The notes under the pieces are model-generated. The model was given only the letters and a program-made list of their open reading frames with translations. It was not told where the DNA came from and ran no database searches. Shown piece after piece: positions 1-32,986 of a stretch of 33,019 nt of DNA. The stretch comes from a virus. The stretch spans positions 1 through 33,019 of IMG/VR virus record IMGVR_UViG_3300027337_000015; one strand, written 5' to 3'. Position numbers and translations under genes: made by a program. Position 1 is the first letter of the stretch; each line of letters begins with the position of its first letter.

Positions 1-146
1 GCCTTGGCTCGTGCTTGATAGTCGCCTGAGTAATGCGGACGCTTGGGCTTGGGATGGAGTCGGTTGTATGTGGTCTGGCAGTCTGGGCATCGGCGTGGGT
101 TGGTGGTGAGATTCCCGCAGGTTAGACATGGTCTAGAGATGGTCAT
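1..146 (-). CDS. HNH endonuclease, N-terminal part (runs off window)
   Basis: The frame opens with ATG at 146 and stays open to base 1, giving 48 residues. It has two CxxC pairs (CLTC near residue 7 and CPDC near residue 20), then a basic stretch RPHYSGDYQARAK. This is the N-terminal zinc-binding layout of the short HNH nucleases found beside phage terminases. The catalytic HNH part lies outside the window, so the call rests on the N-terminus alone. No strong Shine-Dalgarno sequence precedes the ATG. In many actinophages such a nuclease sits just upstream of the small terminase and assists DNA packaging; here the small terminase is at the opposite end of the window. Confidence 0.6.
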   Translation of the reverse strand, partial: MTISRPCLTCGNLTTNPRRCPDCQTTYNRLHPKPKRPHYSGDYQARAK

Positions 147-165: not shown

Positions 166-358
166 TCACGCCGTCACGCCAAGTAATACTTGGCGCGGGA
201 CGGCGTATGTGACAAATTGTGTTTCACGCCGTGTTTCACGCCGTGGGTCGGGTTCAATGAATATAAGGGTTTGCGGGCGAAAACGGCGTACGCCGTGGTC
301 ACGCCGTGTGTGGTCGGCGTGACGGCGTAAGCACCTGTTTCACGCCGTGTCACGCCGT
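166..358. repeat. Iteron-like cluster of ACGCCGT/ACGGCGT words
   Basis: Ten copies of a 7-base word lie in 193 bases. Direct copies (ACGCCGT) start at 168, 226, 238, 290, 301, 342 and 352; inverted copies (ACGGCGT) start at 200, 283 and 322. Six direct copies extend to the 9-mer TCACGCCGT (166, 224, 236, 299, 340, 350). The pair at 283 and 290 forms a perfect 14-base palindrome. Some copies are spaced 10-12 bases, about one helical turn. A separate hairpin (CGCCAAGT, loop AAT, ACTTGGCG) lies at 177-195. An AT-richer patch lies at 254-270. The block sits between the primase-helicase and the HNH/packaging genes, fitting a replication origin or operator array; which one is inference. Confidence 0.75.
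260..288 (-). promoter_or_regulatory. Possible promoter overlapping the central palindrome
   Basis: On the minus strand TATATT (265 to 260) resembles a -10 box. Exactly 17 bases upstream, where a -35 box would lie (288-283), is half of the palindrome at 283-296 rather than a TTGACA-like hexamer. A protein bound to the palindrome could activate or block transcription toward the HNH and terminase genes. This is a pattern match only. Confidence 0.25.
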
Positions 359-363
359 GTGGT

Positions 364-2193
364 TTAGAACTGTTCAAAGAGTGGATCATTCATCTGTTCT
401 CGGCGTTGGGTGTGGGCTTGTCGGGCTGTCTTGCGGACTACATGGTAGATGGTTTCGGCGCGTTCTTTGACTTCGGCCCACATGGCGTCGAGGCTGATCG
501 TTGGGTCGATGTTGAGTTCTTCTAGCATCTTGAGAGCTTGGGTTAGTCGTTCGCCGCCTTGGATGTCTTGTGTGAACATCTTGTGTTGGTCGTGGATGAT
601 GAGGTTGATTCGTTCGGGTATCCAGGTGTGCCGGTGCTTCTGTCGGATCATGACTAGGCGTCCGTCTACTTTGGTCATCTGCCAGACCAGGTCGACGTCG
701 TCGTTCTTTGCGCTGGTGCCTCGTGCGCCTTTCTTGAGGTCTTTGCCTGCGTGGTCTATGCGCATGAGTGATCGGCCTTCTTGTTTGAGGTTGATGGCTG
801 TCCAGCGGTAGAAGTTGCGGACGGTGTCGGCGTCGTTCTCTGCGCCTTCGACTGCTCGTGCGAAGGTGTCGATGATGACGAGTTCGGCTTGGCAGGCTCG
901 TGCTAGGTCGCAGATTTGTTTGGCTCCTTCTGGTTTGTCGAGTGAGCCGATTGGTGGGAGTGATGCGTAATGCAACCTTGATAGGTCGGTGTCTTTGTTG
1001 TAGCCCATTGCGGTGAGTCGCTCAAAGAGTACGGCTTGTGACATTTCGTAGTCCATGTAGAGGACGTTGGTTGGTGGTTTGGGTTCGGCGAAGATTTCTT
1101 TGCCTGTGGCGAGTGCGGCTGCGATGTAGAGCGCGAGTAGTGATTTGCCTGTTCCGCCTGGTGCGAAGATGACTACGAGTTGGTTGCGTGGGATGATGGG
1201 TTCGATTAGCCAGTCTTCTGCTGGGAATGATTGGTTCCAGAAGTCTGTCCAGTTGATGAGGATGTTGTCGGTCTTGGTTGGTTGCTCGACTGGCACCAAC
1301 GCTTTGCCTTCTTGTAGGAGCTTCTTGGCGAACGCTGATCGGTCGCCGTTGTGGTGCATGGCGGCGGTGTAGCCGAACCGTGTGTATGTGCCTGCTGGTA
1401 GGCCTGTAATGCTTGTGGTGAATACTTTGAGGATGTCTCTGCCTTGCCATCCTGTTGTCGCTGACGTGCCTTCTCGAATGTCTTTGCCTGGTCGCACCCA
1501 GTGTGATTCGCCTGTTTGGTCGGTGTGTGCGAGTGTCCAGCCGTCTTGTCTTAGTAGTTCGGGCCATGTGGTTGCGGCGCAGTAGCGGGATGCTGGTCCG
1601 TCTTCTTCGAGCAGTAGTGACGGTGCAGTGGGTGTAGTGGGTGTGGCTGGTTCGGCTTTCGCTGTAAGGAGTAACACCATCCACAGTGGCATGTCTGCTG
1701 GTTTGTGGTCGGCGATCGAGCGTTCTTCTGTCCATTGGTATTCTTTGCCGTTCGGGTGAACTGTTGGTGGTGCGAGGACTTGTCCGCCGATGCCACGGAT
1801 GTCGATGCCTTGTCCGAGTTTGCCTGATGCTTCGTTGCGGATCGGTGCGTCGGTGAGGAAGTAGATGTGTCTTCCGCCGGAGCCTGTGATGACTTCGAGT
1901 GTGTCGGGTAGTTTGCCGTGTAGTTGTTCTAGGTCGGCGAGTGTGTCCGAGCCACGGTACTGTTCGCGATCATCAATGTCTACGACGATGAGGTATCGGT
2001 TGCGACATTCACCTGTTGCGATGCCAAGTCCGCAGTTTTTGAACTGTCCTTCGAACCATTGTCGGATTGTGGTCGGGTCGGTGGTGGCTGCGTTCTGCCA
2101 ACCTGACATTGGTGGCCGTTTCTCGCCTTGTTTGATTGGTATGACGCGCACACCTTTGTTGGCGTACGCGAGTGCAGTGGTTAACACGGACAT
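364..2193 (-). CDS. Bifunctional primase-polymerase / RepA-like helicase
   Basis: The 609-residue protein combines two replication enzymes. Residues about 1-175 form a prim-pol (archaeo-eukaryotic primase) domain with the catalytic VVDIDD at 70-75, GSGGRHIYF at 104-112 and GIDIRG at 129-134. After a linker, residues about 325-540 form a RecA-fold hexameric helicase of the RepA/AAA_25 type: Walker A APGGTGKS at 344-351, Walker B LVIIDT at 438-443 and RIDHAGKD at 478-485. It should lay primers and unwind DNA at the phage fork. The start is well supported by AAGGAGA seven bases before ATG. It is the last complete gene of the replication module and adjoins the repeat cluster at 166-358. No DNA polymerase is visible in the window, so the prim-pol domain may also synthesise DNA, or the host enzyme is used. 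Confidence 0.9.
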   Translation of the reverse strand: MSVLTTALAYANKGVRVIPIKQGEKRPPMSGWQNAATTDPTTIRQWFEGQFKNCGLGIATGECRNRYLIVVDIDDREQYRGSDTLADLEQLHGKLPDTLEVITGSGGRHIYFLTDAPIRNEASGKLGQGIDIRGIGGQVLAPPTVHPNGKEYQWTEERSIADHKPADMPLWMVLLLTAKAEPATPTTPTAPSLLLEEDGPASRYCAATTWPELLRQDGWTLAHTDQTGESHWVRPGKDIREGTSATTGWQGRDILKVFTTSITGLPAGTYTRFGYTAAMHHNGDRSAFAKKLLQEGKALVPVEQPTKTDNILINWTDFWNQSFPAEDWLIEPIIPRNQLVVIFAPGGTGKSLLALYIAAALATGKEIFAEPKPPTNVLYMDYEMSQAVLFERLTAMGYNKDTDLSRLHYASLPPIGSLDKPEGAKQICDLARACQAELVIIDTFARAVEGAENDADTVRNFYRWTAINLKQEGRSLMRIDHAGKDLKKGARGTSAKNDDVDLVWQMTKVDGRLVMIRQKHRHTWIPERINLIIHDQHKMFTQDIQGGERLTQALKMLEELNIDPTISLDAMWAEVKERAETIYHVVRKTARQAHTQRREQMNDPLFEQF

Positions 2194-2213
2194 GGTTCTC
2201 CTTGGTTGATTGC

Positions 2214-2960
2214 TTAGTTTAGTGACGGCGTCTCTTGAACTTCTTTTTGATGCGATGTTTCATGTTTCAGATGCCAGTAAGTCAGGTATTCGATCGCATT
2301 ATGCAGCAAGAGCCACGAGTCATTAAAGAAGCCAAGACCGCTATTGCATTTAGTACAAAGTAACCCTCTTGCTTTTTCTGTTTCGTGACAATGATCAAAC
2401 GCCAATGATTTTTTGCTTAATCGGTAACTACGGCAGATCGCACACCGACCGTTTTGAAGCTGTAGTAAAGATTCATAATCACCGCGTTCTACTCCATATC
2501 GTTTGTCTCGTCGCTTATTTTTTGATTCTTGTTTGGCTTTCTTTCGACAGGCATCTGAACAAAGTTTTGTTGCAATCAAGTTGTTGCTCGAGACCATGAA
2601 GTTTTTCCCACACATTCTGCAACGAGTTTCAAAGCGCATTTGCGACCTGGCTATTTGATAACAATCATTTGAACAGTATTGATTCTTGCTTGTAAATCTC
2701 TTACCGCGATAAACTTTCACTTCTTGTTTGAAAGTCTTATTGCACTCTGTATTTGCGCAAACTTGAAAACGATCCTTGATTTTTCTATTTATTTTTGAAC
2801 AATCATTTGAACAATAAACGCGCTTTTCCCAACGATGACTGGTCTTGCCGTTTGGTGCGGTGTAAAAAACTTTTGGTATTTCAAATGTTTTGTTGCACCC
2901 TTTACATGTGCGATAAATAGAGCCGCGGTTAATCTCTCGTTTGACTGCCATGTCAGCCAT
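2214..2960 (-). CDS. Endonuclease VII-like HNH nuclease with zinc fingers
   Basis: The C-terminal third matches the recombination endonuclease VII family: YGVERGDYESLL, then C-A-I-C, LAFDHCHET (His-Me finger), RGLLCTKCN and a helical end. Upstream of it are several CxxC-type modules (CKGCNKTF, YCSNDC, CRMCGKNF, LCSDAC) that probably bind zinc and DNA. I chose ATG at 2960, which overlaps the stop of the preceding gene; the next ATG at 2951 is equally possible and a longer GTG start at 3005 is less likely. No clear Shine-Dalgarno is present. Base composition stands out: 2761-2820 has 16 G+C in 60 bases, against 37 in 60 at 841-900 in the primase gene. This suggests a recently acquired, possibly homing, nuclease; a Holliday-junction resolving role is also known for the family. 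Confidence 0.75.
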   Translation of the reverse strand: MADMAVKREINRGSIYRTCKGCNKTFEIPKVFYTAPNGKTSHRWEKRVYCSNDCSKINRKIKDRFQVCANTECNKTFKQEVKVYRGKRFTSKNQYCSNDCYQIARSQMRFETRCRMCGKNFMVSSNNLIATKLCSDACRKKAKQESKNKRRDKRYGVERGDYESLLQLQNGRCAICRSYRLSKKSLAFDHCHETEKARGLLCTKCNSGLGFFNDSWLLLHNAIEYLTYWHLKHETSHQKEVQETPSLN

Positions 2961-3405
2961 GTTTGCGGATGTTGCCGAGTATGTCGGCAGGTACTTCTCG
3001 GCCACGCAGGTTATAGAGGAATGTGACGAATCCGATCTCGTCTACTTTCTCAATTTTGTTCTCCATGAATGCTGTGGCGAGTGCGTTGATTGGCCAGATG
3101 ACGAACCATGGTTCGCTGTCTTCGGCGACTGGTCCCCACCAACCATCTTGCTTCGAGTGACCGTACTGCACGATAAACGCTGGGATCTTTGCCATGTTGC
3201 CGAGCTGCGCGAGCGTTCGTGCGCCGACATTGATTAGGTCTAGGACTCCGTGTTCGTGTTTGTAGTCGATGAGTGCTTTCGGTATGCACTTGTCGTATTC
3301 GACCATGAGGAAGTCGATGTCCATCGCTGGTGTGTTGTAGCCCCAGCCGCGATGCCGTTGTGATAGCCATGCGTCTCGTTTGAAGTGTTGTTCATTGCTT
3401 GTCAT
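2953..3405 (-). CDS. Possible PD-(D/E)XK nuclease-like protein
   Basis: The 150-residue product starts at ATG 3405, 14 bases inside the preceding HTH gene. An earlier in-frame start at 3525 would overlap that gene far more. It contains DIDFLMVEYD followed by PKALIDYKHE. An acidic residue and then a hydrophobic D-x-K strand is the core arrangement of PD-(D/E)XK nucleases, but the catalytic set is not fully clear. The middle and C-terminal parts are Trp-rich (GWWGPVAEDSEPWFVIWP). It belongs to the leftward early operon between a regulator and the endonuclease VII-like gene. The nuclease assignment is inference; a structural or DNA-mimic role cannot be excluded. Confidence 0.5.
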   Translation of the reverse strand: MTSNEQHFKRDAWLSQRHRGWGYNTPAMDIDFLMVEYDKCIPKALIDYKHEHGVLDLINVGARTLAQLGNMAKIPAFIVQYGHSKQDGWWGPVAEDSEPWFVIWPINALATAFMENKIEKVDEIGFVTFLYNLRGREVPADILGNIRKHG

Positions 3406-3631
3406 ACCAGTCCGTCCATATCTCTGAGGGATGTAGTCCGAGTCGGACTGCATATTTGTCTGCTTGCCATATGTTGAAGTTTGTTGGGTTGTTTCGCCAT
3501 CGTGAGATGACGGTTCTGTTGACACCCAACAGTTCGCCGATGTGTTTCGCCGAAGTGCCAGGTGTCCACAGTTTCAATAGTTCCGATGCCGGATAGCAGA
3601 AGTATTTGACCGCCTGCTGTCTTGTGGTCAT
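3392..3631 (-). CDS. Small helix-turn-helix DNA-binding protein
   Basis: This 79-residue protein starts at ATG 3631, which overlaps the preceding stop in an ATGA. Residues about 24-47 (SAKHIGELLGVNRTVISRW) read as a helix-turn-helix: a helix, a turn at GVN, and a recognition helix TVISRW. The C-terminal part (RLGLHPSEIWTDWY) resembles small phage and plasmid regulators. It may regulate the early operon or the repeat cluster at 166-358; no target is shown by the sequence. No integrase or second repressor is visible, so it need not be a lysogeny repressor. Confidence 0.65.
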   Translation of the reverse strand: MTTRQQAVKYFCYPASELLKLWTPGTSAKHIGELLGVNRTVISRWRNNPTNFNIWQADKYAVRLGLHPSEIWTDWYDKQ

Positions 3632-8292: not shown

Positions 8293-8474
8293 TATTTGAT
8301 TTCTTTAGTCCAGCGACGAACATGGAACATTGCATAGAAGTTGACTACTGCGTAGATGAATATCTCTACGCCGTTCGCCGGACTTTCTTGCGGCAACCTT
8401 GGCATGAATAACAGCATCATCCATCCCACGATTATGAACGCCAATGTGAACATTATTTTCTCTTGCGGTTTCAT
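8292..8474 (-). CDS. Small membrane protein, two TM segments
   Basis: This 60-residue protein has two hydrophobic stretches, IMFTLAFIIVGWMMLLFM (about 7-24) and VEIFIYAVVNFYAMF (about 36-50), and a basic C-terminus. AAGGAGG seven bases before ATG is a strong ribosome site. It is transcribed just after the transglycosylase gene and just before WhiB, so it could be a holin, antiholin or a superinfection protein. No family is recognised. Confidence 0.6.
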   Translation of the reverse strand: MKPQEKIMFTLAFIIVGWMMLLFMPRLPQESPANGVEIFIYAVVNFYAMFHVRRWTKEIK

Positions 8475-20588: not shown

Positions 20589-21215
20589 TCAACGAGTGTA
20601 CTCGGCAATGAACTTGTGCATCTCAACATCAGCCTCAATATGGGAATCCGATGAGATACGGTTCGGTCGAATATCGTTCACCAAAACTTGCACACCAGCA
20701 GGCTTGAACCATCGCGCACCATGCACATGACACTTCCACCAAAACGCCCAATCCGACCAATACACAGCAGGCCAACCACCAACCCGTTCCCAAATATCTT
20801 TCGTGAACCAAGACGTACCCATCACATGATTTGACATCGGATATGTAGCGAACCGTTCAGGTGCAGAAGGGTTCGCACCGCCATGCGACATGAACCGCAA
20901 AGTGTTCGCAACTACATCAAAACCGTCTTCAGGCAGGCAACTAAAAGCGTCAGGATATAGACGGTCATCCATTGCTAGCGGAGCAATCCACCCGTCAGCA
21001 ACGGTCGCAATCGCAGCATTGATCATCGCATCACAAGTCCGAACCCGACACTCAACTAGCCGACACGGCAAATCCTTCACACCACAATCATCATCAGGAT
21101 GATATGCAACAACCACATCATCAGCCGGTGGGTTCAACGCTTGTACCGAATCCCACCAACCTTGCACCTCACCTTTGTAGGTCGAACCCCACGCAAACCC
21201 GACAACCGTGATCAC
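20589..21215 (-). CDS. GT-A type glycosyltransferase-like protein (cassette gene 5)
   Basis: The 208-residue product begins MITVVGFAWGSTYKG and has WIAPLAMDDRLYPDAF (D83-D84), the acidic metal-binding position of GT-A enzymes, then FTKDIWERVGGWP and a Trp-rich acceptor region (YWSDWAFWWKCHVHGARW). It is shorter than most GT2 enzymes and may be a minimal or specialised member. It starts with GTG in a GTGA overlap with the previous cassette gene. The minus strand is G/T-rich here, unlike the connector gene that follows, which marks a boundary at about 20580. Confidence 0.6.
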   Translation of the reverse strand: MITVVGFAWGSTYKGEVQGWWDSVQALNPPADDVVVAYHPDDDCGVKDLPCRLVECRVRTCDAMINAAIATVADGWIAPLAMDDRLYPDAFSCLPEDGFDVVANTLRFMSHGGANPSAPERFATYPMSNHVMGTSWFTKDIWERVGGWPAVYWSDWAFWWKCHVHGARWFKPAGVQVLVNDIRPNRISSDSHIEADVEMHKFIAEYTR

Positions 21216-21970
21216 AACGCCTGAGTTTTTTCGATGAACACATCCAACTGCTCAGCCATCGTCGCAAAGTAATCAAGATACGCCTGAAATGATTTGCCGA
21301 CCTCGGCTCGAGCCTGATCAAGTTTTGATACACAATCAACCGCACCAAATACTTTCATCGGACCAGAAGTCAACTGCCCAATATCCCAAGCGTTCTCACC
21401 TTGAATCAACACAACTGGACATCCACACAAAGTTGCCTCATGCACAATCGCCGTATACGGATCAAACGAAATCAGATACTCCGCCGACCGCATCTCATCG
21501 GCAAGATCTTTGCGTGACGCAGGCCAAGAATGCGTGATCAACTTCGCACCATCAGGCACATACCCTTCACGACCCTTACCAACCCAAACCAACACACCCG
21601 ACCTTTCACCGTCACCAGGATGAAACAAATCAGGTTCCAGATAAGGCACATTCAACACAGGACTCTGATTGATGTTCGGATGCCAAACAAACTGCAAGCC
21701 ATCTTTCTTCGCATGATTCAACAACCACCACACGACACGATCCGAACCCGAAGGATTACCTTCAACAATCTCAGGATAAACATGAATCGCATCGTCAGGA
21801 ATCTCAAGACATTCAGGCACCGACCAAGGATTATCAACAAATGGCATATGGGTCATCTTCATCTCCGCTTGCAACCCACGGTCACGCAACAGTTTGCCGA
21901 GCAGATACAGCACCCGAATCCCGCCCGACACACGCCTATAGTCAGGCGACCAAATCACATACGGTTTCAT
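21212..21970 (-). CDS. GT-B glycosyltransferase (cassette gene 4)
   Basis: ATG at 21970, in an ATGA overlap, gives 252 residues; an ATG five codons earlier at 21985 has no better ribosome site. The N-terminus has YRRVSGGIRVLYLLGKLL, typical of the donor-independent half of GT-B enzymes. Later come WVGKGREGYVPDG and, in the nucleotide-sugar-binding half, YTAIVHEATLCGCPVVLI. The H-E-A-T-L-C-G-C-P-V-V element corresponds to the conserved C-terminal Glu motif of GT1/GT4 enzymes. It is shorter than most GT4 proteins. The sugar and the acceptor are unknown. Confidence 0.7.
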   Translation of the reverse strand: MKPYVIWSPDYRRVSGGIRVLYLLGKLLRDRGLQAEMKMTHMPFVDNPWSVPECLEIPDDAIHVYPEIVEGNPSGSDRVVWWLLNHAKKDGLQFVWHPNINQSPVLNVPYLEPDLFHPGDGERSGVLVWVGKGREGYVPDGAKLITHSWPASRKDLADEMRSAEYLISFDPYTAIVHEATLCGCPVVLIQGENAWDIGQLTSGPMKVFGAVDCVSKLDQARAEVGKSFQAYLDYFATMAEQLDVFIEKTQAL

Positions 21971-22701
21971 CGCCGCCACACCCATGATGCAGGATGCTTG
22001 CCGTCACGGATCCACTTCGGCCAATCAGCCGAAATCTCAACCTCATGCAGAACACCACGATCCAAGAAAACTCCTTCTTTGAAACATCGAGCAATCGTCT
22101 CCTCGACATCGCCGACATTCAATTCTTGATGGCTGAATTGTTTGATTTTGTTGATGCAGCGTTCAGGTCCACCCATCCAACCCAAATGCCATCCGCCGTG
22201 TAAACGATAAAAGTTGTATCTCATTTGGCGTCGCATCACATCGGCTGTGCCGTTACGAAACCGCCAAGGACCACCAATACAAGTCAACTCCATCGGTGCT
22301 TCCCAATGGACACTGAACACCAGATGTCGCATCATCACACCATGCCAAGCATCAGAGAACGAACCGATCATCGAAGGCGACCAGATCTCGTCGGTATCGG
22401 CGACCGTGATCACATCATCATTTTGAATGCCTAACTTTTCGGCAACAGTAAAAATTTGATTCCGAGCCTCCGCCTCGCTATCCCACGCATTGGGATGAAC
22501 AGTTGTCTCATAATCAACCCAATGAATCTTGTCCTGCCATTGCTCAAACTTCTCACGCGACTTGCGTTCCCTCGGAATACCCGTGAACGACTTGTCGCCT
22601 TCAATGATGATGAACTTGTCAACGTAATCGGCGAGTTCGTAAAGGCGGCATTCTAAGACGTCGTCTTCGCCGTTGTACAGGATGCCGTCAAAGACTTGCA
22701 T
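21967..22701 (-). CDS. GT17-like glycosyltransferase (cassette gene 3)
   Basis: I start this 244-residue protein at ATG 22701, where it overlaps the preceding stop as TGATG. It begins MQVFDGILYNGEDDVLECRL, then DKFIIIEGDKSFTG, EAEARNQIF and ITVADTDEIWSP, with the DxD metal motif at 102-104. This series (F-D...N-E-D-x-L-E-x-R...E...T-F-x-G...D-x-D-E) is that of glycosyltransferase family 17, N-acetylglucosaminyltransferase-like enzymes. It lies mid-cassette, coupled on both sides. Confidence 0.75.
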   Translation of the reverse strand: MQVFDGILYNGEDDVLECRLYELADYVDKFIIIEGDKSFTGIPRERKSREKFEQWQDKIHWVDYETTVHPNAWDSEAEARNQIFTVAEKLGIQNDDVITVADTDEIWSPSMIGSFSDAWHGVMMRHLVFSVHWEAPMELTCIGGPWRFRNGTADVMRRQMRYNFYRLHGGWHLGWMGGPERCINKIKQFSHQELNVGDVEETIARCFKEGVFLDRGVLHEVEISADWPKWIRDGKHPASWVWRR

Positions 22702-23354
22702 CAATCCCAACTCAGGTCTAGACGCCTTTGCAAATCCCATTCGCCAGCATCAAGACGCACGTTCCGCAACCTGAACAGTTCAAGGTTTGATTCAAAACTT
22801 TTGCGATTCTTTTCAGCCAGCGACGGGTCGGAGTTGAGTGTTGATGAGTTGTCGTGGTAGACGATTGCGTTTGTTTTAATAATTTTCTTTTGCATCCGTG
22901 TCGCTCGACGCTCATAGTCGTTGTCTTCGAAATAGGCGGGATGGAATGCCTCACAGAACAAGCCGACATCTTTGACGACTTGTGAGCCGATCCATGCACA
23001 GCACCAACCTGGTTGACCTGCGAGATGTATCTCATCGGTGTGGCATCCGCGATAGAACTTTTGGAGTTCGTCGCGTTCAAAATAGGCGTCCGAGTTTAGA
23101 AGAATCCAACCTTGTGCGAATGGCGTCATTTTGATACCAAGATTCCAAGATGTCGCCACACCAAGATTGCTCGGCATGTTCAAGATGTATCGGTTCTCAA
23201 TGTTCGAGTTTTTCGGCAATGACAAACAATCCTTTTCGATTAGTCCGCCGTTGTCGATGATGATGAGATTCTCGACCGCGTAGTCGATTGATTTGATGCA
23301 GCGTTCAAGTAGGTCATATCGGTTGAGTACGGGTATGACTATGACCGGCACCAT
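22701..23354 (-). CDS. GT2-like glycosyltransferase (cassette gene 2)
   Basis: ATG 23354 with AAGGAG eight bases upstream gives 217 residues; a longer frame would run further into the preceding gene. The N-terminus VPVIVIPVLNRYDLLERC, then NLIIIDNGG, SNLGVATSWNLGI and WILLNSDAYF are GT2/rhamnosyltransferase-like features, with NSDA in the DxD position. FHPAYFEDNDYERR probably supplies the catalytic acid. Unlike its cassette neighbours, its plus strand is G/T-rich and the gene is AT-richer, suggesting a separate origin. It overlaps the preceding gene by 16 bases. Confidence 0.75.
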   Translation of the reverse strand: MVPVIVIPVLNRYDLLERCIKSIDYAVENLIIIDNGGLIEKDCLSLPKNSNIENRYILNMPSNLGVATSWNLGIKMTPFAQGWILLNSDAYFERDELQKFYRGCHTDEIHLAGQPGWCCAWIGSQVVKDVGLFCEAFHPAYFEDNDYERRATRMQKKIIKTNAIVYHDNSSTLNSDPSLAEKNRKSFESNLELFRLRNVRLDAGEWDLQRRLDLSWD

Positions 23355-31041: not shown

Positions 31042-32511
31042 CTAAACTACGAAGAACCCTGGTTGCTGAACACTCTCGACCCGTCTCGTTGCACGATCCA
31101 CAGCCATCGCCAATGCTATCGCAGCGTCAATCTTGCGTTTCGATTTACCTTTAGACAAACGCCAACCCATGTCGGTTGAGCGTTGCGCAGCCGACAACAC
31201 CTGATCGGTGAATACTGGATCACCGTTGTGTGAGAGACGACCGTTCACGATGAACTCGTACAAAGTTCCGCAAGCAGGCACCATGCGCGCAGTCGACTGG
31301 CTGAACTCAACCATCGTGAACCCTTCATCGGACATCGCTTCCGCTGAACGCTGAAAGAATGCTGGGTCATAAGCGAACTCTTGCACCGTGAACTCGCGAC
31401 CCAAATCACGGATGTGTTGCTCGACTGCGGCCACATCCATCACACCGCCATCAGGATGCCAAATCTTCGCCCGAACAACAATCCGACCAGACTCCTGCGG
31501 TTGCGCAATCACCACCGCAATCGAGTCATGCTTCAACGCCATGTCAATGCCGACGAACACAGGAATGTTCGGATCAAGTTCATCATCACTACGACACAAC
31601 TCCCACGCACCTTTCGGCAACCACGACTCACCATCGGTACGAACCCATTGATTCAACCGGTAGCGACGGAACGCGACTTCGGCAGTTTGCATCATTGACA
31701 CTTCCATGTCTTGCATGTCCAACAAACCTTCAGCCAAGTTCGGATTTGACTCAGCCCAAGCTTCACGGTCATGAATCTCACAATCGGCTGGTGCTTCCCA
31801 CCAAAAGAAACCGAACCGTTCGTCTTGTTTGGTGTCGGCAACAATCTCTTTGCCGTAGTTGTATAGACGACCACACACCGTGTCCAAATCAAAACCTGCC
31901 GTGGTGATAGCGACAATGTTCGGATCCTTACGCGCACCAGAACCCAACGTCAACGCATTCCACAAATCATCATTCGGTTGAACATGCAACTCATCAAATA
32001 CAACCGTTGAAGGATTCAAACCTTGTTGAAGTTTCGCGTCGCTCGATAGCACACGATAGATCGCACCAGTCGAAGGAACTTCAACAACATCGCGATACAC
32101 CTTGCACACACCCGACAACGCAGGCGACTGAGTGATCTGCCACTTCGCCTCATTGAACACAACACGCGCCTGCTGTCTGTCACCCGCCGCCGAGTAAACC
32201 TCAGCACCAGGCTCACCTTCGATCAAGCCGTACAGCGCAATGAGTGAACCGAGCAACGACTTGCCGTTCTTCCGACCCAACCCGATCAGGCTGCGACGAT
32301 ACCGAAGCAACCCATCATCACGACGCTCATAAAGTGCGTCAAGAAGTGCAACCTGCCAATCGGTAAGAATCAGAGGCTGACCGGCACGAACACCCTTGCT
32401 TACATGCAAGAACGTGCGGGCAAAGTCAACGACCTTGTGACCATCAGACTTGCTGTATAACTTCGGCGTCGACCAAGTTGGAGTTCCTTTGTCGATATGC
32501 GTCAAGCTCAT
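31042..32511 (-). CDS. Terminase large subunit
   Basis: The 489-residue protein has the packaging ATPase, with RRSLIGLGRKNGKSLLGSL (Walker A-like) near 72-90 and PSTVVFDELH (Walker B with catalytic Glu) near 167-176. The C-terminal nuclease follows, with FVGIDMALKHDS, the aspartate strand FAYDPAFF and a final KRKIDAAIALAMAVDRA. It translocates DNA into the head through the portal and cuts it. AAGGGTGGC stands just before ATG. The start lies 68 bases inside the small terminase gene. Confidence 0.93.
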   Translation of the reverse strand: MSLTHIDKGTPTWSTPKLYSKSDGHKVVDFARTFLHVSKGVRAGQPLILTDWQVALLDALYERRDDGLLRYRRSLIGLGRKNGKSLLGSLIALYGLIEGEPGAEVYSAAGDRQQARVVFNEAKWQITQSPALSGVCKVYRDVVEVPSTGAIYRVLSSDAKLQQGLNPSTVVFDELHVQPNDDLWNALTLGSGARKDPNIVAITTAGFDLDTVCGRLYNYGKEIVADTKQDERFGFFWWEAPADCEIHDREAWAESNPNLAEGLLDMQDMEVSMMQTAEVAFRRYRLNQWVRTDGESWLPKGAWELCRSDDELDPNIPVFVGIDMALKHDSIAVVIAQPQESGRIVVRAKIWHPDGGVMDVAAVEQHIRDLGREFTVQEFAYDPAFFQRSAEAMSDEGFTMVEFSQSTARMVPACGTLYEFIVNGRLSHNGDPVFTDQVLSAAQRSTDMGWRLSKGKSKRKIDAAIALAMAVDRATRRVESVQQPGFFVV

Positions 32512-32986
32512 TTGCCACCCTTATCTCCGCCAAACCCAACCTGGCACGATCGCTCGGAGTGAACCCAAGCAAACTCAACCAAGCCGTACATTGCGCGTCC
32601 ATCTGTTCTATCTGCTTCACCGCAGGATGAGTCACAATCTGCCCATTCGGCGACGTGTACCAGCGCGTCGTCACATCGTCGCCCAACCAAACTTCCAGAT
32701 CGTAAATCTTTTGATAGTTCCGACACAGCCGACCCATCAACGGACCATCGTGCAACTCGGACAGATGACGCCGACCACCAGTCCACAACACCGTCCAATA
32801 CTCGGTGCCAACTTTGCCCAAACCTTTCGGTGCGACCGGCACAACCGACATGTCGACCAGCGCGAGCGCAGTCTCTGGCATAGGCGAAGCCTTCAAACCT
32901 GTGCGGATGCGTGAACCTTTGAGACGCTTGCGCTCGATCGGAGTTGCGGATGATCCGCGACCGACTCCAGTTGATTTGGTGGCCAT
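32444..32986 (-). CDS. Terminase small subunit, P27 family
   Basis: The 180-residue protein has a basic disordered N-terminus (RGSSATPIERKRLKGSRIRT) and then the P27 pattern: GTEYWTVLWTGGRRHLSELH, GPLMGRLCRNYQKIYDLEVW, a Gly-rich turn, THPAVKQIEQMDAQCTAWL, and the hallmark LLGFTPSDRARLG. It recognises phage DNA and loads the large subunit. ATG 32986 has only a weak upstream GGTGG, and no better start is visible before the window ends. The remaining 33 bases to the right hold no gene I can support. Confidence 0.88.
   Translation of the reverse strand: MATKSTGVGRGSSATPIERKRLKGSRIRTGLKASPMPETALALVDMSVVPVAPKGLGKVGTEYWTVLWTGGRRHLSELHDGPLMGRLCRNYQKIYDLEVWLGDDVTTRWYTSPNGQIVTHPAVKQIEQMDAQCTAWLSLLGFTPSDRARLGLAEIRVANELDAYRQRNSNLVDAEVIQQV

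Follow-up and report, generated by a model that had tools for sequence, protein, structure and literature searches.

A word-switched iteron array behind a phage PrimPol-helicase gene is a probable replication origin

What is the function of a dense cluster of short repeated words that lies between the replication and packaging genes of an uncultured phage? The cluster is found in the IMG/VR virus contig IMGVR_UViG_3300027337_000015 (positions 1 to 33,019), and this whole stretch of 33,019 bases is referred to below as the window. All recognised phage genes of the window lie on the minus strand and thus run in a single direction, in the order small and large terminase, portal, protease, major capsid, tail genes, exonuclease, WhiB, small replication-side genes, endonuclease VII and, as the last, a PrimPol-helicase of 609 aa. 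The nearest cultured relative by the large terminase is Pontimonas phage phiPsal1 (39% identity); this match and the WhiB gene suggest an actinobacterial host, and in a prophage search for the host the primase had no relative among genome contigs. The array fills the gap from the primase stop at 364 to the start of an HNH-type gene at 146. A first-pass annotation of this DNA had named three possible functions, namely an origin, an operator and a pac/cos-associated site. Our analysis gave the best support to the origin and contradicted the packaging site, while an operator is less likely and no promoter scores. The features concerned are as follows.

1–146, minus strand: 5′ part of the next gene on from the array, an HNH-type endonuclease gene cut off at the contig end
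166–358, no strand assigned: iteron array with the type A word ACGGCGT/ACGCCGT, ten exact sites and one with a mismatch
168–206, minus strand: bulged hairpin just before the HNH start, from folding and two-sided changes in relatives
254–275, minus strand: AT-richer central patch AAACCCTTATATTCATTGA, partly kept between types
283–296, no strand assigned: 14-bp perfect palindrome ACGGCGTACGCCGT, formed by two abutting inverted sites
364–2193, minus strand: PrimPol (PF09250) and RecA/KaiC-fold helicase (AAA_25), 609 aa, the proposed initiator
364–669, minus strand: C-terminal ~100 residues (509–609) of the primase-helicase, which switch with the array type
391–552, minus strand: predicted three-helix bundle, residues 548–601, from structure prediction
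32444–32986, minus strand: small terminase subunit (TerS), the first gene past the putative cos site

The words counted at first pass, seven ACGCCGT and three ACGGCGT, were all recovered on the plus strand within 168–358, as were the extension of six of them to TCACGCCGT and the 14-base palindrome at 283–296. The exact 7-mers start at 168, 200, 226, 238, 283, 290, 301, 322, 342 and 352, and 314–320 adds an eleventh with a single mismatch. Across the whole window the 7-mer occurred 18 times against 5.2 expected, and the exact TCACGCCGT 9-mer, for which a genome-wide count had been proposed, was absent elsewhere in the 33 kb. In local dinucleotide shuffles any 7-mer reached at most six copies, compared with the ten observed (0/2,000). 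Read on the minus strand, the sites follow the order F F R (R′) F F R F F R F, where R′ is the mismatch site. This near-repeating direct-direct-inverted arrangement was absent from the earlier annotation, as were the bulged hairpin at 168–206 and the cut-off HNH gene at 1–146. The patch at 254–275 is short and only mildly AT-rich, and it is a candidate unwinding element or core promoter. A search of Rfam gave no match for the array stretch.

A primase search yielded 38 loci. More than 20 relatives, whose primases share between about 76% and 98% identity with that of the window, kept the words with unchanged spacing (type A); loss of the array in close relatives had been named as refuting its significance, and in close relatives it was kept. 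The palindrome at 283–296 was likewise retained by nearly all type-A relatives. Eight of the loci lacked ACGCCGT and carried ACAAGCA/TGCTTGT in its place (type B); four more were found in later scans (L089, L131, L133 and L135), and the type-B set comprises at least ten relatives. When site positions were read from the primase, the type-B sites (8/8) coincided with eight of the eleven type-A sites in equal orientation and with a shift of 25–28 nt. None of 20,000 random layouts was as good with the list of 11 type-A sites, and with only the ten exact type-A sites a single layout in 20,000 equalled the observed number. Where the sites match, AC-GGCGT in type A corresponds to AC-AAGCA in type B, with two deviations, ACACGCA at one B site and TCGGCGT at one A site. 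By this comparison, the A and B sites are homologous, with the word exchanged at every one of them, and therefore a single reader protein with changed specificity is indicated.

The array was always located directly after this primase gene. All viral contigs with the type-A core (24/24) were members of this primase family, as were the genuine extra matches of type B. Actinobacterial genomes gave only two scattered matches to the array core, with 2–3 words nearby, which we took as chance. Matches to the pattern GCTTGCKTGTTGCTTGTT in L124, L126–L128, L132 and L134 were dropped on reading as unrelated contigs, mostly AT-rich. One relative, L027 (IMGVR_UViG_3300020042_006521), runs on beyond its array into the same array in inverted orientation, most likely a fold-back artefact of assembly.

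Which protein changes together with the word? Among the columns that separate type A from type B, 40 of 43 fell inside primase residues 509–606. The HNH gene lies about equally near on the other side of the array, and 0 of its 108 columns separated the types, which rules it out as the partner. This control argues against linkage as the whole explanation of the co-switching of primase and array; linkage may add to it, since the primase C-terminus adjoins the array. In the chimera L023, a primase N-terminus 98% identical to type B accompanies an array of type A, and in L015, L018 and L025 a window-like primase N-terminus is joined to another C-terminus. Word A accompanies two C-terminal families (A-I and A-II) that are just 15–25% identical to each other and no closer to each other than either is to B. 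The HNH assignment itself rests on the motif alone (CxxC..CxxC, DH..N), because the gene at 1–146 had no Pfam match at E 0.01. As a separate observation, the HNH gene is swapped for other genes in L024 and L035, where the array stays with the primase, and the replacement gene in L024 resembles a phage DNA adenine methyltransferase.

The remaining genes were compared through two long type-B contigs, G022 and G018, which jointly span nearly the whole genome; no other shared gene in them tracked the array type. Most genes of G022 were 89–100% like those of the window (to about 20 kb), and its WhiB was 94% identical to that of the window despite the type-B array, whereas its primase was at 74%. 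In G018, also of type B, most structural genes were 86–93% like the window. The HTH protein (3392–3631), put forward at first pass as a possible binder, had no detectable homologue beside the primase in several type-A relatives with a complete array and is therefore an unlikely one. These natural recombinants show that the word type is set neither by the terminase, exonuclease, WhiB, HTH or HNH genes nor by the N-terminal part of the primase; the small genes, too, varied independently of the array type. The C-terminal ~100 residues of the primase-helicase thus emerge as the apparent sole shared coding segment that switches with the word, and we infer that this C-terminus reads it. The primase had also been suggested as the binder, and this fits, with the likely reading part narrowed from the whole protein to its C-terminal ~100 residues.

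The PrimPol domain was recognised by PF09250 (E 9.6e-43), and the helicase part is AAA_25 with a RecA/KaiC-like fold rather than the SF3 helicase of the pRN1 type. The full-length primase folded poorly (mean pLDDT 50), so the C-terminal part alone was used for structure; its last 74 residues were predicted to form a three-helix bundle, in which the helices were modelled with good confidence. Profile and fold searches with this C-terminal domain against the PDB returned nothing significant.

At the HNH side of the array, the hairpin at 168–206 has 17 pairs, a 3-nt loop and a 2-nt bulge confined to the 5′ arm (z = -6.2, for the whole stretch). Its outer arms are the last two iterons, and it ends about 20 bases before the HNH start. 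The hairpin was present in all types, with arms perfectly paired in most types except for small 5′-arm bulges. The sequence of the inner stem differed by group and was always matched, with 3 two-sided changes in type A and 3 in type B, each count being over three distinct sequences; no pair was broken, and slid controls were nearly all zero. The structure is likely to be real but short of certain, because only three sequences underlie each count and a dyad bound by a symmetric protein would also keep the symmetry.

The genome ends of this phage group appear to lie elsewhere than at the array. Between the HNH and small terminase genes, 566–583 bases past the primase stop and beyond the HNH gene, relatives share a conserved element, ATGAC followed directly by CCATGCCGTTGGCG (ACGAC in L015). 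Seven contigs end exactly beside it (L005, L006, L008, L015, L028, L031 and L036), and other relatives continue through it into the terminase side. In L002 the element is at 8395–8425. It is retained even where a different gene follows. We regard this element as a putative cos site, about 200 bp further on than the array and past the HNH gene start; the window's own copy would fall into the gap between the contig ends. The array is therefore not cos, which is a conserved element of its own on the far side of the HNH gene. The sign of the GC skew flips at the cos site and not at the array, in the direction expected for an origin near this junction, and hence GC skew does not place the origin. 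In four relatives (L009, L018, L022 and L023) another gene, which starts MIQKDLLxLACPI and at first sight is ParB-like, directly follows cos in place of TerS, and a distant match to TerS lies farther along in L009, L018 and L023. In L014, L017, L021 and L036, some of the relatives only, an A-rich low-complexity stretch (AAATAAAAATC-like) lies between the HNH gene and cos.

Several other readings of the array have to be weighed against an origin. That the array is a packaging site (cosB- or pac-like) bound by the small terminase is suggested by its place within about 600 bp of the cos site and TerS, but this is scarcely credible: the TerS of the type-B contig L029 is 93% identical to that of the window, the type-A contigs L009, L018 and L023 have TerS matches in parts only (32–52% identity), and contigs end at the CCATGCCGTTGGCG element beyond the HNH gene and not at the array. 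Which array type a contig carries does not depend on its small terminase, and this rules out TerS as the binder. The strong hairpin downstream of the primase gene could be read as a mere transcription terminator with the words as a by-product. No terminator was called and no T tract was recognised at the array or hairpin, however, and at least eight words over 190 bp that switch in concert are unneeded for termination, which leaves this reading highly improbable.

An operator or promoter, at which a regulator binds the words and controls a TATATT promoter for the HNH and terminase genes in an early–late switch, would account for an intergenic stretch placed ahead of the packaging genes in a set of unidirectional genes, and type-A relatives retain the TATA-like patch together with a palindrome at the -35 place. 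The first-pass annotation had put the half-palindrome where a -35 box for TATATT would lie; TATATT is indeed at 265–260, but the hexamer at the -35 place is CGCCGT and the case for such a box is weak. A sigma-70 scan of the array stretch gave no promoters, as no recognisable -35/-10 boxes were found. The -10-like hexamer is moreover not retained in type B, the array persists where the downstream gene is exchanged (L024 and L035), and no phage-encoded regulator switches with the word, given the near-identical WhiB of G022 and the HTH protein not found by several type-A arrays. We consider an operator as the main function unlikely, and the initiator may also repress a promoter at the array. The words could alternatively be sites for a protein of the host, for instance a nucleoid factor or one like DnaA, with A and B phages differing in host. 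This would explain why word A is common to two unlike primase C-termini. The DnaA box is TTATCCACA, which the words do not resemble, and G022, whose array is of type B, is 89–100% identical to the window in most other genes, which makes different hosts less likely; we rate a host protein as very unlikely.

The reading that best fits these observations is that the array is the phage replication origin, with iterons and a stem-loop read by the adjacent PrimPol-helicase, to which we assign a probability of roughly 0.7. As in iteron origins, copies of a word lie in non-coding DNA beside the putative initiator gene, with spacing and orientation conserved, and replication would start at the array. 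Several copies of the PrimPol-helicase would bind the words through the C-terminal three-helix domain and load as helicase around the central patch, and the N-terminal PrimPol domain would then prime DNA synthesis. The bulged hairpin beside the HNH gene could expose single-stranded DNA for loading or priming. More tentatively, at somewhat under even odds, a single fused PrimPol-helicase reads both iterons and stem-loop, and co-circulating close relatives exchange modules of origin and initiator tail, such that words fully switched at homologous positions would mark replication incompatibility types that spread via intra-primase recombination.

Known systems share parts of this arrangement. Streptococcus thermophilus phage Sfi21 (NC_000872, misc_feature 34487-34784) has a 302-bp non-coding origin directly after a primase gene, as here, annotated 'origin of replication ... 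phage inhibitory sequence', with AGTAAC/GTTACT words in both orientations around an AT-rich core, and many S. thermophilus phages have a relative of the window's PrimPol-helicase. Sfi21 differs in that its words are others, its origin is far more AT-rich, and PrimPol and helicase/primase are separate genes; its word density was not beyond that of its own shuffles (48/2,000). Four distant PrimPol/helicase phages (Arthrobacter Eileen, Rhodococcus Shagrat, Streptomyces mu1/6 and Podoviridae sp. ctjLE16) had no comparable gap directly after the primase/helicase gene. The alpha protein of phage P4 has a Toprim-type primase and an SF3 helicase and reads short repeats, unrelated to those described here, at two separate sites (ori and crr). 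Its primase, helicase and C-terminal origin-binding domain are fused (comparison in PMC4234260). In ORF904 of the Sulfolobus plasmid pRN1, PrimPol, helicase and a C-terminal DNA-binding domain likewise form one protein, and replication depends on a stem-loop immediately 3′ of the gene, which varies in sequence while its fold is kept (PMC4234260). The window resembles pRN1 in its fused PrimPol-helicase and in a conserved stem-loop directly 3′ of the gene, here shorter and with a 3-nt loop; pRN1 has no iterons, its helicase is SF3 and not RecA-like, and its stem-loop spans about 100 bp and has a large loop. Since the window combines iterons with a stem-loop and has a RecA-like helicase, we did not file it as pRN1 type. 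In the PLE satellites of Vibrio cholerae, the origin-binding domain of RepA and the iteron origin are exchanged jointly between close relatives, and RepA/origin modules function only as cognate pairs (PMC8263062). The PLE case differs in its separate RepA with an N-terminal binding domain and in its iterons, which are three semi-palindromes of ~30 bp.

To our knowledge, phage origins are seldom known outside model phages, and here comparison alone yields a 200-bp candidate origin together with a likely reader domain. Because the word exists as two natural alleles across eight homologous positions, it becomes possible to test directly how initiator specificity evolves. Origin alleles of this kind bear on competition among co-infecting phages and on origin-directed defences: lambda is blocked by ectopic origins (PMC4488673), and ICP1 Odn mimics the initiator to cut PLE origins (PMC8263062). 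The putative cos site would in addition fix the genome ends of this uncultured phage group.

Two further regions of the window stood out in the comparison. The endonuclease VII gene (2214–3005) adjoins the primase, has a low GC content (43% for 2001–3000) and is missing beside the primase in nearly all relatives; it looks like a recent insertion and is possibly a free-standing homing endonuclease. Between the head-tail connector and glycosyltransferase genes, the stretch at 20589–22740 holds genes with few or no homologues among seven long relatives compared and forms a hypervariable spot.
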